Assembly (NCBI GenBank): GCA_017547865.1 | Contig: JAFYOA010000376.1 | Location: 1-5,264 of the forward strand | DNA: 5,264 nt | Origin: Clostridia bacterium | GTDB lineage: Bacteria; Bacillota_A; Clostridia; Oscillospirales; Acutalibacteraceae | Direction of reading: 5' to 3' | Shown here: positions 2,558 to 5,264 of the stretch, one piece after another | Layout of the letters: each line of letters opens with the position of its first letter | Numbering within the stretch: the stretch's first letter is position 1 | The notes under the pieces: generated by a model | Database searches by the model: none | Seen by the model: only the letters and a program-made list of their open reading frames with translations | Told to the model about the DNA's origin: nothing | Program-made: the position numbers and the translations under genes

Positions 2558-3433
2558 TCAGCCGGTGGAATCCACGGTGGCAAGGTAGGTGCCCGCGGCC
2601 ATAATGGCAAGCGCCACCCAGTACGAAACAGAAGGCAGCTCCCAGAAGATCAGCATGGAAAGACCGGCACCCACAAAGGGTGCCACGGCGTAGTAGGTGC
2701 TGGTTTTGGCAGCGCCTAAATACCGCTGGGCGTAAATGTAAAAGTAAATGCTTAAACCGTAGGCAACAAAACCCAGCAGCAAGGCAGCAAGAACGGAAAG
2801 TGCCGCGGGCAGTTTTTCACCCATGCACAGAGCAATGCAAAGTGCCCCCAGACCGGAGCCAAACCCTTTGATGACCACGATTTCCAGTGGATTTTTGGAA
2901 GAAAGCATGCGGGTGCAGTTGTTCTCCATACCCCAGCATACGCAGGCCAGCAGCACAAATACCGAACCGAAGGAAAACGAAAAGCTGCTCATGTCCTCAA
3001 AAGATAAAATAATGCTGGAGACCACCACCAGCGCAATGGCAAGCCAAAGCCGTTTGGAAATGGCTTCTTTAAAGATCACCAGTGCGATCACGGAGGTGGC
3101 AACGATCTCAAAGTTGTTCAGCAAAGAAGCGTTGGCCGCGGTGGTCATAGTCAGTCCAAGCATCAGAAAGATGGGTGCGGCAATGTCCAGCACCACCATG
3201 CCCACGGTGTAGGGGAGTTCTCTGCGGGTAAGGGGGAGTTCTTTTTCTTTTTTGCCGGCAAGCTTTTGAACAGCTCCCACTAAAAACAATCCCGCACCCG
3301 CGCCGAGGTAGAGAAAGGCTGCCATCATGGTGGCGGGAATATCATGCAGCAGAAGTTTGGAAAACGGTGCGTTCAGTGCATACAGCACCGCCGCCAGAAA
3401 AGCAAAAAATACAGCTCGTTTTGTGCAGTTCAT
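2558..3433 (-). CDS. DMT-superfamily (EamA) membrane transporter, copy 2, coupled to csoR
   Basis: This 291-residue protein has about ten hydrophobic segments and two EamA repeats (roughly residues 5-140 and 150-287). Family-like stretches are ALNAPFSKLLL in helix 1, LNNFEIVATSVIALVIFKE in the first repeat and APFVGAGLSMLIFWE in the second. Two starts are possible. ATG 3443-3445 overlaps the csoR stop as ATGA but has no ribosome site before it. ATG 3431-3433, four codons later, has GAGG (complement of 3440-3443) 6 bases upstream, so I chose it; the alternative would give 295 residues. Either way the gene is translationally close-coupled to csoR and should share its mRNA. If CsoR responds to a metal, this transporter is expected to be made when that ion is in excess. 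That is inference: few EamA proteins have a proven metal substrate, and metabolite or chelator export is an alternative. It acts in the cytoplasmic membrane. Confidence 0.9.
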   Translation of the reverse strand: MNCTKRAVFFAFLAAVLYALNAPFSKLLLHDIPATMMAAFLYLGAGAGLFLVGAVQKLAGKKEKELPLTRRELPYTVGMVVLDIAAPIFLMLGLTMTTAANASLLNNFEIVATSVIALVIFKEAISKRLWLAIALVVVSSIILSFEDMSSFSFSFGSVFVLLACVCWGMENNCTRMLSSKNPLEIVVIKGFGSGLGALCIALCMGEKLPAALSVLAALLLGFVAYGLSIYFYIYAQRYLGAAKTSTYYAVAPFVGAGLSMLIFWELPSVSYWVALAIMAAGTYLATVDSTG

Positions 3434-3441
3434 AGGTGACC

Positions 3442-3711
3442 TCATTTCACAAATTTGTCAATGGCGTCGCACAGCTCGTCCATGGCTTTGCCGTCGGTGG
3501 TTGCCACGGCATCGGCCACGCAGTGCTGCAGGTGGTCTTTCAAAATGATCTTGCCCGTGTTGCGGATGGCGGATTCCACGGCGGCCAGTTGAGTCAGTAC
3601 CTCTGTACAGTCGCGGCCGTCTTCCACCATTTTTTTCACGGCTTCCAGGTGGCCGATGGCCCGGGAAAGACGATGAATGACGTTTTTGGTTTCGGTGTGT
3701 TTGTGTTCCAT
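3442..3711 (-). CDS. csoR: CsoR/RcnR-family metal-sensing transcriptional repressor
   Basis: This 89-residue all-helical protein is of standard length for the CsoR/RcnR/FrmR (DUF156) family, whose members are tetrameric repressors that leave DNA when they bind metal or, in some branches, react with sulfur species or formaldehyde. The ligand positions are visible: C35 in DCTEVL, H60 and C64 in KDHLQHC. This is the Cys-His-Cys trio of copper(I) sensors. A histidine at position 3 (MEHKH) matches the N-terminal ligand of RcnR-type nickel/cobalt sensors, so the metal is not certain. There is an extra cysteine, C81, in the last helix. The start ATG at 3709-3711 has GAGGAG (complement of 3719-3724) 7 bases upstream. 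A perfect G/C-tract palindrome abuts that ribosome site, suggesting autoregulation. It is the first gene of a pair with an EamA transporter; no copper ATPase or copper chaperone is in this window. Confidence 0.93.
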   Translation of the reverse strand: MEHKHTETKNVIHRLSRAIGHLEAVKKMVEDGRDCTEVLTQLAAVESAIRNTGKIILKDHLQHCVADAVATTDGKAMDELCDAIDKFVK

Positions 3712-3724
3712 GATTTCACTCCTC

Positions 3725-3743
3725 TATCCCCCCTGGGGGGATA
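3725..3743. promoter_or_regulatory. CsoR-type operator (perfect 19-bp palindrome)
   Basis: TATCCCCCCTGGGGGGATA is a perfect inverted repeat: nine bases, one central T, nine bases. Known operators of the CsoR/RcnR/CstR family are G-tract dyads of this kind flanked by A/T. It begins 5 bases downstream of the csoR -10 box, covers the expected transcription start, and ends directly at the Shine-Dalgarno sequence, so a bound repressor would block RNA polymerase. Confidence 0.85.
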
Positions 3744-3864: not shown

Positions 3865-4071
3865 ATGGTAAAAGAAAAGATCGACCGTATCAACGAGCTG
3901 GCCCGCAAGGCAAAGGCAGAGGGCCTGACCGAGGAAGAAACCAAGGAGCGCCAGGCACTGCGCGCAGAATATATCGCCGAGTTCCGTGGCAGCCTGCGCA
4001 GCCAGCTGGATGGCATCTCCATTCAGCGGCCGGATGGCAGCGTGGAACCGCTGAAAAAGAAGAGCAATTGA
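3865..4071 (+). CDS. DUF896 / UPF0291 small cytoplasmic protein (YnzC-like)
   Basis: This 68-residue charged protein has no membrane segment or signal. Residues 3-48 read as two helices of the family: KIDRINELARKAKAEGL, then TEEE followed by ERQALRAEYIAEFRGSLRSQL. The end (SIQRPDGSVEPLKKK) matches the usual short tail with a P-D/E-G turn. This is the pattern of Bacillus YnzC and relatives, a two-helix hairpin family widespread in Firmicutes. The molecular function is not established; one Bacillus member sits next to an SOS-induced division inhibitor gene, but no such neighbour is present here. The start ATG has a weak ribosome site, GAGAG at 3851-3855, 9 bases upstream. It appears to be transcribed alone. 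Confidence 0.9.
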   Translation: MVKEKIDRINELARKAKAEGLTEEETKERQALRAEYIAEFRGSLRSQLDGISIQRPDGSVEPLKKKSN

Positions 4072-4144: not shown

Positions 4145-4174
4145 TTGTTGTTTGGGTGGAAGATATGGTATAAT
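4145..4174 (+). promoter_or_regulatory. Promoter of the CNNM/CorC gene and its leader RNA
   Basis: TATAAT (4169-4174) is preceded by TG at 4166-4167 with one base between, an extended -10. TTGTTG at 4145-4150 could act as a -35 at an 18-base spacing. The expected start near 4181 gives a 5' leader of about 190 nt before the ATG at 4373, long enough to carry regulatory structure. Confidence 0.75.
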
Positions 4175-4180
4175 ATCAAC

Positions 4181-4304
4181 AATCTATTGAAGAAAGCGAG
4201 TGCCGGGTAACCGTGGACGAAAACCCTGACCCTTACAGTAACAATTGCAAAAATGTAGAGTAGAGGCAGCCTCGAAGCGTCGTTTCGTTTCGGGTCTGTC
4301 TTTT
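4181..4304 (+). promoter_or_regulatory. Candidate riboswitch-like leader of the CNNM/CorC gene
   Basis: Directly seen: CGAGTGCC (4197-4204) can pair with GGCA (4265-4268) and CTCG (4271-4274), eight pairs with a 2-base bulge. This closes a 60-nt inner domain holding smaller possible hairpins: GGGT 4205-4208 with ACCC 4223-4226, or alternatively CGG-GTAA-CCG at 4204-4213; and TTACA 4233-4237 with TGTAG 4254-4258 (one G-T pair). The 3' strand of the closing helix is also the 5' arm of a terminator-like hairpin at 4262-4303, so the two structures exclude each other. Inference: stabilising the inner domain, for example by an ion, would prevent termination and turn the exporter gene on. No match to the consensus cores I know for M-box, yybP-ykoY (Mn), NiCo, ydaO or fluoride riboswitches was found by eye, so the class is unassigned and the function unproven. 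Confidence 0.5.
4262..4304 (+). terminator. Leader terminator (attenuator) upstream of the CNNM/CorC gene
   Basis: CTCGAAGCG (4271-4279) pairs with CGTTTCGGG (4286-4294) over nine positions, two of them G-T, around a 6-base loop. Beyond one C-T mismatch the stem continues as GGCAG (4265-4269) with CTGTC (4296-4300), and A-T and G-T pairs lead into the T run 4301-4304. The run is short (four T, then GTGCGTTTT), so it may be a partial terminator or a pause site. Its left arm overlaps the closing helix of the leader domain. Confidence 0.55.
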
Positions 4305-4311
4305 GTGCGTT

Positions 4312-4332
4312 TTAAGCCTTGTTAAAGCCTTG
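4312..4332 (+). repeat. Short tandem repeat in the leader
   Basis: TTAAGCCTTG (4312-4321) is followed directly by TTAAAGCCTTG (4322-4332), identical apart from one inserted A. It sits between the attenuator and the ribosome site. It may be chance or slippage; no function is evident. Confidence 0.35.
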
Positions 4333-4372
4333 CTTTTCTGCAAAAATATTTTTTATGGAGTGAATTTGTTTT

Positions 4373-5264
4373 ATGTTGGACGGCAGTACAATCGGTATGA
4401 TCGTTGCACTGGTGGTTTGTGTGGCCCTTTCGGCCTTTTTCTCGGCTTCGGAGACAGCCTTCTCCTCGCTGAATAAAATTCGCATGAAGGCGAAGGCGGA
4501 GGCCGGCGATGCCCGCGCTGCCCGTACCCTGGAATTTGCCGAAAACTACGATGAACTGCTTTCGACCATTCTGATCGGCAATAATATTGTGAATATCGCC
4601 GCCTCCTCTTTAGGTACGGTGCTGTTTACCATTGCGTTTAAAGAGTACGGCCCCACGGTTTCTACGGTGGCCCTTACCGTGATTATCCTGATCTTCGGCG
4701 AGATTTCCCCCAAGGGCATTGCCAAAGAAAACGCAGAAATGATCGCAATGGCGGTAACCGCCCCGTTGAAATTGATCCGCGCGGTGTTCCACCCGTTGAA
4801 TATCCTCTTTATGGCCATTAAGCGTTTTGTTTCCGGGCTGGTGAAAAGCAACGATGACAACGTGGTGACCGAAGAAGAACTGATTACGTATGTTTCTGAG
4901 GTTGAAAACGAAGGCGGTCTGGAAGAAGCCGAAAGCCAGCTGATCCGCAACGCCATCGAATTCAACGATGTGGAAGTTTCTGAAATTCTGGTGCCCCGCG
5001 TGGATATTTGCGCTGTGGAAGACAGCGCCACCGTGGAAGAGATTGCCGCCGCGTTTGCAGAAAGCGGTTATTCCCGTCTGCCTGTGTACCACGATTCCAT
5101 CGATACCATCGTGGGCGTCATCCACGAAAAAGATTTCTATAATGCCCGTTTTCATGGGGATGACAACCTGAGCGCCATTATGAAGCAGCCTACCTGCACC
5201 ACCTATTCCGTTAAGATCCCCGACCTTCTGCGTACCCTGCAGAAAGATAAGACCCACATGGCCA
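4373..5264 (+). CDS. CNNM/CorC (HlyC) family divalent-cation transporter with CBS domains (3' truncated)
   Basis: The frame is open from ATG 4373 to the window end, giving 297 residues; family members usually have about 420-450, so the second CBS domain is incomplete and any C-terminal CorC_HlyC domain is missing. Residues 1-185 form the DUF21/CNNM membrane domain: a first helix (about 5-25) leading into SASETAFSSL, the conserved IGNNIVNIA (68-76) in the next hydrophobic block, and a third block ending in GEISPK (109-114). The acidic linker TEEEL (166-170) precedes the CBS pair, which opens with VPRVDI (207-212) and SRLPVYHDSIDTIVGVI. The family exports Mg2+ (some Co2+) across the cytoplasmic membrane, in studied cases driven by Na+, with the CBS pair sensing Mg-ATP; applying this here is inference. 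The only ribosome site is GGAG at 4357-4360, 12 bases before the ATG, which is longer than usual. An earlier ATG at 4355 is in frame but stops after two codons. The leader suggests regulation by attenuation. Confidence 0.93.
   Translation, partial: MLDGSTIGMIVALVVCVALSAFFSASETAFSSLNKIRMKAKAEAGDARAARTLEFAENYDELLSTILIGNNIVNIAASSLGTVLFTIAFKEYGPTVSTVALTVIILIFGEISPKGIAKENAEMIAMAVTAPLKLIRAVFHPLNILFMAIKRFVSGLVKSNDDNVVTEEELITYVSEVENEGGLEEAESQLIRNAIEFNDVEVSEILVPRVDICAVEDSATVEEIAAAFAESGYSRLPVYHDSIDTIVGVIHEKDFYNARFHGDDNLSAIMKQPTCTTYSVKIPDLLRTLQKDKTHMA

Follow-up and report, generated by a model that had tools for sequence, protein, structure and literature searches.

A leader that is probably best read as a leader-peptide attenuator precedes the CNNM/CorC-type gene at the right end of the window, as the whole stretch of 5264 bases analysed here is called. 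It would be a Mg2+ sensor of the MgtL kind acting with opposite sign on a CNNM exporter. Between the promoter and the CNNM gene sits a conserved short upstream open reading frame (uORF), whose peptide starts MDENPDP, with acidic residues alternating with proline inside the first ~10 residues. Its stop codon abuts the 5' arm of a terminator-like hairpin that covaries across related leaders. Judged from the sequence comparisons presented below, the reading in which the leader is a ribosome-mediated attenuator that would sense Mg2+ through the uORF and turn the exporter on at high Mg2+ is given a probability of roughly 0.6; its Mg2+ dependence and the termination step are what we infer from this arrangement.

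The locus and its promoter

On the plus strand, the right end of the window comprises a DUF896 gene, the intergenic leader, and the 5' part of the CNNM/CorC-type gene, which begins with an ATG at 4373 (Table 1). The CNNM and CBS domains identify the latter as a predicted Mg2+ transport gene of the exporter type. The PDB relatives of its product bear the names Hemolysin, CNNM4, and CorC; 7m1t and 7m1u are the best, followed by 7cff, and CNNM4 entries, e.g., 9y9f, score lower. A preliminary description of this DNA had placed a regulatory leader in front of a CNNM/CorC-type gene, with a promoter (TATAAT, 4169-4174) about 190 nt ahead of the start codon. The domains and the PDB relatives bear out the gene assignment, and direct reading of the sequence bears out the promoter. 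TGG stands immediately ahead of TATAAT and makes it an extended -10 element. The transcript is predicted to start at ~4181, giving a leader of ~190 nt. A consensus promoter scan of the window does not list this promoter, which has a poor -35 element and a spacer of 18. The leader as a whole is more stable than shuffled sequences (z -2.4; 3 of 200 shuffles fold at least as well). No similarity to phage DNA was found.

Further upstream, two EamA-family transporter genes recognised with Pfam (1631-2506 and 2558-3445, both on the minus strand) are tandem neighbours beside the CsoR-type metal repressor gene. A palindrome, ATCCCCCCTGGGGGGAT, lies at 3726-3742, close upstream of the start of the CsoR-type gene, and looks like the operator of that gene itself.

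Table 1. Coordinates of the leader elements and neighbouring genes in the window
Feature	Position	Strand	Basis
CsoR-type metal-sensing repressor gene	3442-3711	-	Pfam Trns_repr_metal
DUF896 gene	3865-4071	+	
Promoter: TTGTTG (4145-4150) and extended -10 TGG-TATAAT (4166-4174)	4145-4174	+	Read from sequence
5' side of competing helix, CGAGTGCC, ahead of uORF start	4197-4204	+	Folding; partner 4265-4274
Weak Shine-Dalgarno-like GGGU, 4 nt ahead of uORF start	4205-4208	+	Shine-Dalgarno score 7
uORF (leader peptide), GTG...TAG, MDENPDPYSNNCKNVE*	4213-4263	+	Read from sequence; aligned with 27 relatives
Codons 2-7 of the uORF (D E N P D P), acidic and proline residues; proposed ribosome-destabilising segment	4216-4233	+	Enrichment among CNNM loci; likeness to MgtL
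Terminator-like hairpin, stem 4263-4269/4296-4302 and 4271-4279/4286-4294; UUUU 4301-4304, then GUGCG	4263-4304	+	Folding, covariation
GGAG, likely ribosome binding site of CNNM gene, spacing 12	4357-4360	+	Read from sequence
CNNM/CorC-type transporter gene, 5' part, leaving the window	4373-5263	+	Pfam CNNM 165.4 bits, CBS 32.4 bits

The uORF in the window and in related loci

The uORF of the window consists of 16 codons and a stop (GTG GAC GAA AAC CCT GAC CCT TAC AGT AAC AAT TGC AAA AAT GTA GAG TAG). In the leaders of 26 related CNNM loci, it is a short reading frame and not an RNA fold that many have in common. An ortholog that is 76% identical (L001) carries the uORF MDEGPDPGSTNNKIKCKK, and GTGG is invariant at the uORF start in 28/28 aligned leaders (the window, this ortholog, and 26 others). 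Where the window has GGGU, most of the aligned relatives have GGTGAG or GGTGAT, and CC often comes next; presumably this GGUGA(U)CC is an extended Shine-Dalgarno sequence, the complement of the 16S 3' end. The uORFs in the leaders of orthologous CNNM genes have acidic/proline starts such as MDEGPDP, MDEPPP, MSDPDPAG, and MDDSPHP, and those of other relatives include MDEPPPSNNC..., MDEPPLPNYI..., MDQPPPSN..., MEDSSVPLG..., and MEDLEIPI.... By genus, MSDPDPAGRLPF... was found in Agathobaculum, MDDSPHP... in Holdemania, and MDDSPIP... in Anaerorhabdus. Some uORFs contain a single acidic residue but PPP (MDQPPP, MDRPPP, MGEPPP). No such uORF was found in some close relatives, e.g., L002, L172, L174, L176, and L177. 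In several peptides, the acidic/proline start is followed by S-N-N, P-N-Y-I, or N-Y-I (A1 columns 62-75 of the alignment described below, window ~4231-4244), possibly a second conserved patch acting in the exit tunnel.

The survey of uORF frequency covered 259 loci. In 239 of them, the window included, the CNNM gene is 40% or more identical to that of the window, and in the other 20 identity is lower. This sample is non-random, being composed of the best-scoring matches and 100 from further down the ranking. A locus was excluded if it had less than 200 nt upstream or if its last 120 nt exactly duplicated those of another, and the starts of CNNM and control genes were picked by a script. To qualify under the strict criterion, a uORF of 8-60 residues needed a Shine-Dalgarno score of 8 or more, an acidic residue (D or E) second or third in the peptide, a P somewhere in residues 3-8, and three or more D, E, or P in residues 2-9. 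Such a uORF was present in 72/239 CNNM loci and in 6/257 other genes from the same DNA, with a Fisher P of 3e-19 that overstates the evidence because the loci are top search matches and mutually related. About two thirds of the CNNM loci, all but these 72, have no uORF under this criterion. The window is absent from the 72 positive loci since its uORF has a Shine-Dalgarno score of 7, below the survey cut-off of 8. The 72 uORFs represent 51 distinct N-terminal octapeptides, and at least four of them (L191, L278, L277, and L194) look by eye like the ends of upstream genes. Four of the six control matches are close variants of one sequence (MEVLP...). A looser criterion gave 62/217 loci with at least 45% identity against 10/258 control genes, and 20 sets of dinucleotide shuffles gave a mean of 7.3 and a maximum of 11. 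Under looser criteria, a uORF was present in 5/22 loci of the 40-45% group and in 1/20 of the group below 40%.

Within codons 2-5 of the 28 aligned leaders, the third position departs from the majority base in 22 of its 112 cells, the first position in 7 of 112, and the second in 5 of 112; the 34 uORFs starting M[DG][EQR]PP use three different proline codons for Pro4 and four for Pro5. Such a pattern speaks for selection on the peptide, which seems to have been kept, and not the DNA alone. In addition, a search of 300 genomes from one family finds the pattern GGTGAN6GTGGAYGARCCNCC a single time in each of 19, and a reversed-pattern control in none. All 19 matches are on the same strand as a matched CNNM segment and less than 170 nt upstream of it; a CNNM match is present in 219 of the 300 genomes. 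No report of uORFs of this kind ahead of CNNM genes was found in the available portions of open-licence PMC full texts, and mpfA is absent from the main text of a uORF study in S. aureus.

The terminator-like hairpin

The preliminary description had proposed a terminator-like hairpin at 4262-4303, and this structure holds up. Folded alone, the hairpin (4263-4302) has a free energy of -22.3 kcal/mol, and its pair probability is 0.95 once the transcript reaches 4303. A simple terminator scan places it at 4271-4294, one of 11 sites listed for the window, where shuffles give 8.5 +/- 2.9; it is the covariation across relatives that marks the hairpin as more than chance.

Covariation was assessed in an alignment, A1, of 28 leaders, the window and 27 of the 72, with a GTG start, M[DG][EQR], and P within the next three residues. 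Entry also required at least 49% identity and a recognisable 3' end of the hairpin; L241 was manually trimmed at its end, and L242 was left out because its hairpin lay outside the search pattern, though it fitted otherwise. In A1, 93.8% of hairpin cells are paired, two-sided changes occur in 8 of 14 pairs, and 0/500 shuffles are as high on any of five measures. The outer pairs are partly selected, since entry depended on the 3' end of the hairpin, and the two-sided changes of the inner pairs are free of this selection. RNAalifold on the same 28 leaders gave this hairpin and only three further pairs, near the uORF start. The T run behind the hairpin is only 3-4 in 28/28 rows, short for an intrinsic terminator, and the model is softest here, since termination may be weak or may depend on another factor. 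In most aligned leaders, UUUUG(C/U)GCG or a similar sequence, not a long U-tract, stands behind the hairpin (A1 columns 139-147, window 4301-4309).

The competing helix and the riboswitch reading

The leader had earlier been taken for a transcriptional ON riboswitch, with a 60-nt multi-hairpin domain closed by pairing of 4197-4204 with 4265-4274 in competition with the hairpin. This pairing does exist in the window, where CGAGTGCC and GGCAGCCTCG form 4+4 bp around a 2-nt bulge, and in computed folding the helix precedes completion of the hairpin, its mean pair probability being 0.80 in a transcript ending at 4275 and 0.00 when the hairpin is complete (to 4303). However, the covariation that had been suggested as its check is lacking. 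In the 28 leaders, 51.8% of its cells are paired, no better than in controls slid by +1 (57.6%) or +3 (53.2%), and for each pair 0 or 1 of the 28 sequences changed on both sides. The supposed domain is mostly uORF, an ORF that had been overlooked; from the uORF start, which is conserved, to the hairpin, the region varies in length and sequence. A register-shifted pairing of GGUGAG, before the uORF, with CUUACC, in the hairpin, is paired in 85% of cells, above slid controls, but in covariation 123/500 shuffles are as high. It was considered as a conserved antiterminator and rejected, since it lacks covariation and GGUGA(U)CC fits the extended Shine-Dalgarno sequence.

The leader had not been assigned to a known class by eye, and Rfam 15 gives nothing at the gathering score in the window. 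The sole weak match, to the FAS-AS1 lncRNA model (19.2 bits, where the cut-off is 55; E 2.4), was taken as chance. Among 20 related loci, the only Rfam match is to an FMN riboswitch that lies apart from the leader and is unrelated to it (RF00050, 119.2 bits, L248 839-956, minus strand, which is the CNNM strand, shortly past the expected gene end). A missing Rfam match leaves room for a new class, but no conserved covarying aptamer structure was found in the 28 leaders, in which the hairpin is the conserved structure. A riboswitch closed by the 4197-4204/4265-4274 helix is thus highly improbable. A regulatory leader that has a terminator-like hairpin and the ON orientation, and that probably responds to Mg2+, fits the evidence; a riboswitch with a ligand-binding aptamer does not.

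Ribosome position and proposed mechanism

In every one of the aligned leaders, the end of the uORF lies within the hairpin, past it (three leaders: L179, L247, and L249), or at most 6 nt before it. The hairpin is thus within reach of a ribosome on the uORF in 28/28, a count to be read with the entry rule of a recognisable hairpin 3' end. Masking the bases under a ribosome at the stop codon of the window, with a footprint size that we assume, lowers the mean pair probability of the hairpin from 0.95 to 0.42, and the remnant is without the lower stem beside the U-tract; with the ribosome at codon 5, the pair probability stays at 0.955. A finished uORF should therefore prevent the hairpin, and an early failure should allow it. 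With the same presumed footprint, a ribosome at the stop would overlap the hairpin by only about 3 nt in L258 and L264.

These results are compatible with the following scheme. At sufficient cytosolic Mg2+, ribosomes would get past the D-E-N-P-D-P segment and, on arriving at the stop (4261-4263), would shield the hairpin's 5' arm, and RNA polymerase would continue into the exporter gene. At low Mg2+, the acidic/proline nascent chain would destabilise the ribosome, as in the intrinsic ribosome destabilisation of MgtL, with drop-off within the first codons; the hairpin would then form and transcription would stop. The exporter would in this way be on at high Mg2+. Some relatives may apply the same logic at the level of translation. 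A script assigned 38 of the 72 uORF loci to a terminator type and 11 to a coupled type, defined by a uORF stop at -3 to +11 relative to the CNNM start; the other 23 are of neither type. By uncontrolled single-sequence folding, the later part of the uORF takes at least three quarters of the pairing predicted for the CNNM Shine-Dalgarno sequence in 18 of the 23, and the accessibility of this sequence under ribosome masks shows a small mean rise, from 0.30 to 0.39, over the 23. For the 11 coupled leaders the masking says nothing, since the Shine-Dalgarno sequence itself lies under the mask. Tentatively, then, other relatives may use a different wiring for the same logic, through pairing of the Shine-Dalgarno sequence with the 3' part of the uORF or through a stop at the CNNM start.

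Alternative readings

In the main rival, a genuine leader peptide governs the hairpin, yet what it senses is not Mg2+ but the supply of proline, EF-P activity, or general translation stress. Its standing comes from the many members that have PP or PPP right after the first acidic residues, a known stalling context (the 34 M[DG][EQR]PP uORFs), some with one acidic residue only, in which proline stalling could outweigh acidic destabilisation. Translation of mgtA is reportedly controlled by EF-P, and the mgtC leader is described as a target of charged tRNA-Pro. The frequency of acidic residues is no independent evidence here, as the criterion itself demanded one at position 2 or 3. On the other hand, the gene downstream is of CNNM type in 19/19 pattern matches, and the motif recurs with interspersed, non-consecutive prolines (MDENPDP, MSDPDPAG, MDDSPHP). 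This explanation is considered unlikely.

A switch of opposite sign can also be drawn, in which drop-off at low Mg2+ would free the region before the uORF to pair with the 5' arm of the hairpin as an antiterminator, and the gene would be on at low Mg2+. The pairing exists in the window, and the related GGUGAG/CUUACC pairing is the one found above slid controls; yet its failure to exceed shuffles in covariation and the better explanation of GGTGA(T)CC as an extended Shine-Dalgarno sequence count against it. Such a sign would also be unsuited to an exporter, and in excerpts of PMC12421838, Salmonella corC is described as up at high Mg2+, and mgpA likewise at neutral or alkaline pH. This reading is very improbable. 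A weak constitutive terminator with a spurious or spacer ORF would agree with the short U-tract and with the two thirds of CNNM loci that have no uORF, but it is barely plausible in view of the conservation at the peptide level, the 19/19 specificity, and a geometry kept in 28/28 aligned leaders.

Comparison with known leaders

In trp-type and macrolide-type attenuators, the position of the ribosome on a leader ORF decides whether a hairpin forms. There the signal is stalling at scarce codons or by a bound drug, whereas in the CNNM leader it would be drop-off. The closer comparison is MgtL, the leader peptide of mgtA in E. coli and Salmonella, which is likewise short, has acidic and proline residues directly after the start, and precedes a Mg2+ transport gene. 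E. coli MgtL starts MEPDPTPLP, resembling the start of the window's uORF; this is a likeness and not a claim of homology, which would be unexpected at such a length. According to portions of PMC11282234, the EPDP segment of MgtL causes ribosome drop-off at low Mg2+ and thereby turns on the Mg2+ importer MgtA. In the same partial accounts, an RNA structure decides whether transcription proceeds, as proposed here, and termination is Rho-dependent. In contrast to this importer gene, on at low Mg2+, the CNNM gene is of exporter type, the sign inferred for it is opposite, and its leader has an intrinsic-type hairpin that overlaps the uORF end and has a short U-tract. Excerpts of PMC9718836 further indicate that Mg2+ relieves the destabilisation of ribosomes by acidic N-termini.

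Three enterobacterial cases involve related genes or uORFs. The N-terminal sequence of E. coli CorC (YbeX) itself is reported to abort early translation (parts of PMC12421838, citing Chadani 2021). It begins MSDDNSHSSD, with no proline in those residues. This is a CorC-family gene with a ribosome-destabilising start, but the segment lies inside the protein and not in a uORF tied to a hairpin. The YoaL-YoaE/MgpA system of E. coli and Salmonella has a leader ORF before a CorC-type gene, which is needed for its translation and for which action at high Mg2+ has been suggested, as far as the consulted text goes. Unlike the uORFs described here, YoaL begins MDRHRRHFSIRPF, without the motif, and overlaps the start of yoaE. 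E. coli YoaL was for this reason rejected as a direct precedent. The mgtQ uORF before Salmonella mgtB is short and contains Asp and Glu codons, which reportedly impede its translation and thereby control the Mg2+ transporter (PMC8092293, in part). It differs in acting on the ribosome binding site of an importer, with impeded uORF translation raising gene expression, according to the same excerpts.

The motif on the protein itself

The acidic/proline motif was also found at the N-terminus of the CNNM protein itself. It is present there in 9/20 distant paralogs (MTDPDPAG, MDDPGP, MSEDPGP...), in 13/166 closer CNNM proteins whose genes have no uORF, in 0/73 with a uORF (the window counted), and in 1/257 control genes. 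Such an either-or placement is expected of a sensor that consists of the peptide start and can be positioned freely; the contrast of 0/73 with 13/166 is modest. In L018, near 2814 (MEDPYPGETG...), and L023, near 2916 (MSGDAPVPLPDS...), the acidic/proline segment is apparently in frame with the CNNM protein, and no separate uORF was found in these two loci. The acidic/proline start peptide may be a portable Mg2+ sensor attached repeatedly to CNNM exporter genes, either as a uORF, acting through a terminator, an RBS-blocking hairpin, or coupled translation, or as an N-terminal fusion. This broader proposal is tentative and is given slightly less than an even chance.

If this broader proposal is true, the stability of the ribosome would be the cell's gauge of Mg2+ for export in Bacillota, a mirror image of the import control by MgtL. 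If the attenuator reading is true, export in many gut Bacillota would be set by whether a ribosome finishes a short acidic/proline peptide, and the same physics as in MgtL would be at work with the opposite outcome. Ribosome destabilisation as a means of metal sensing, known from a few leaders in enterobacteria, would extend to a broad range of Bacillota, and the reading provides predictions that are open to reporter assay.
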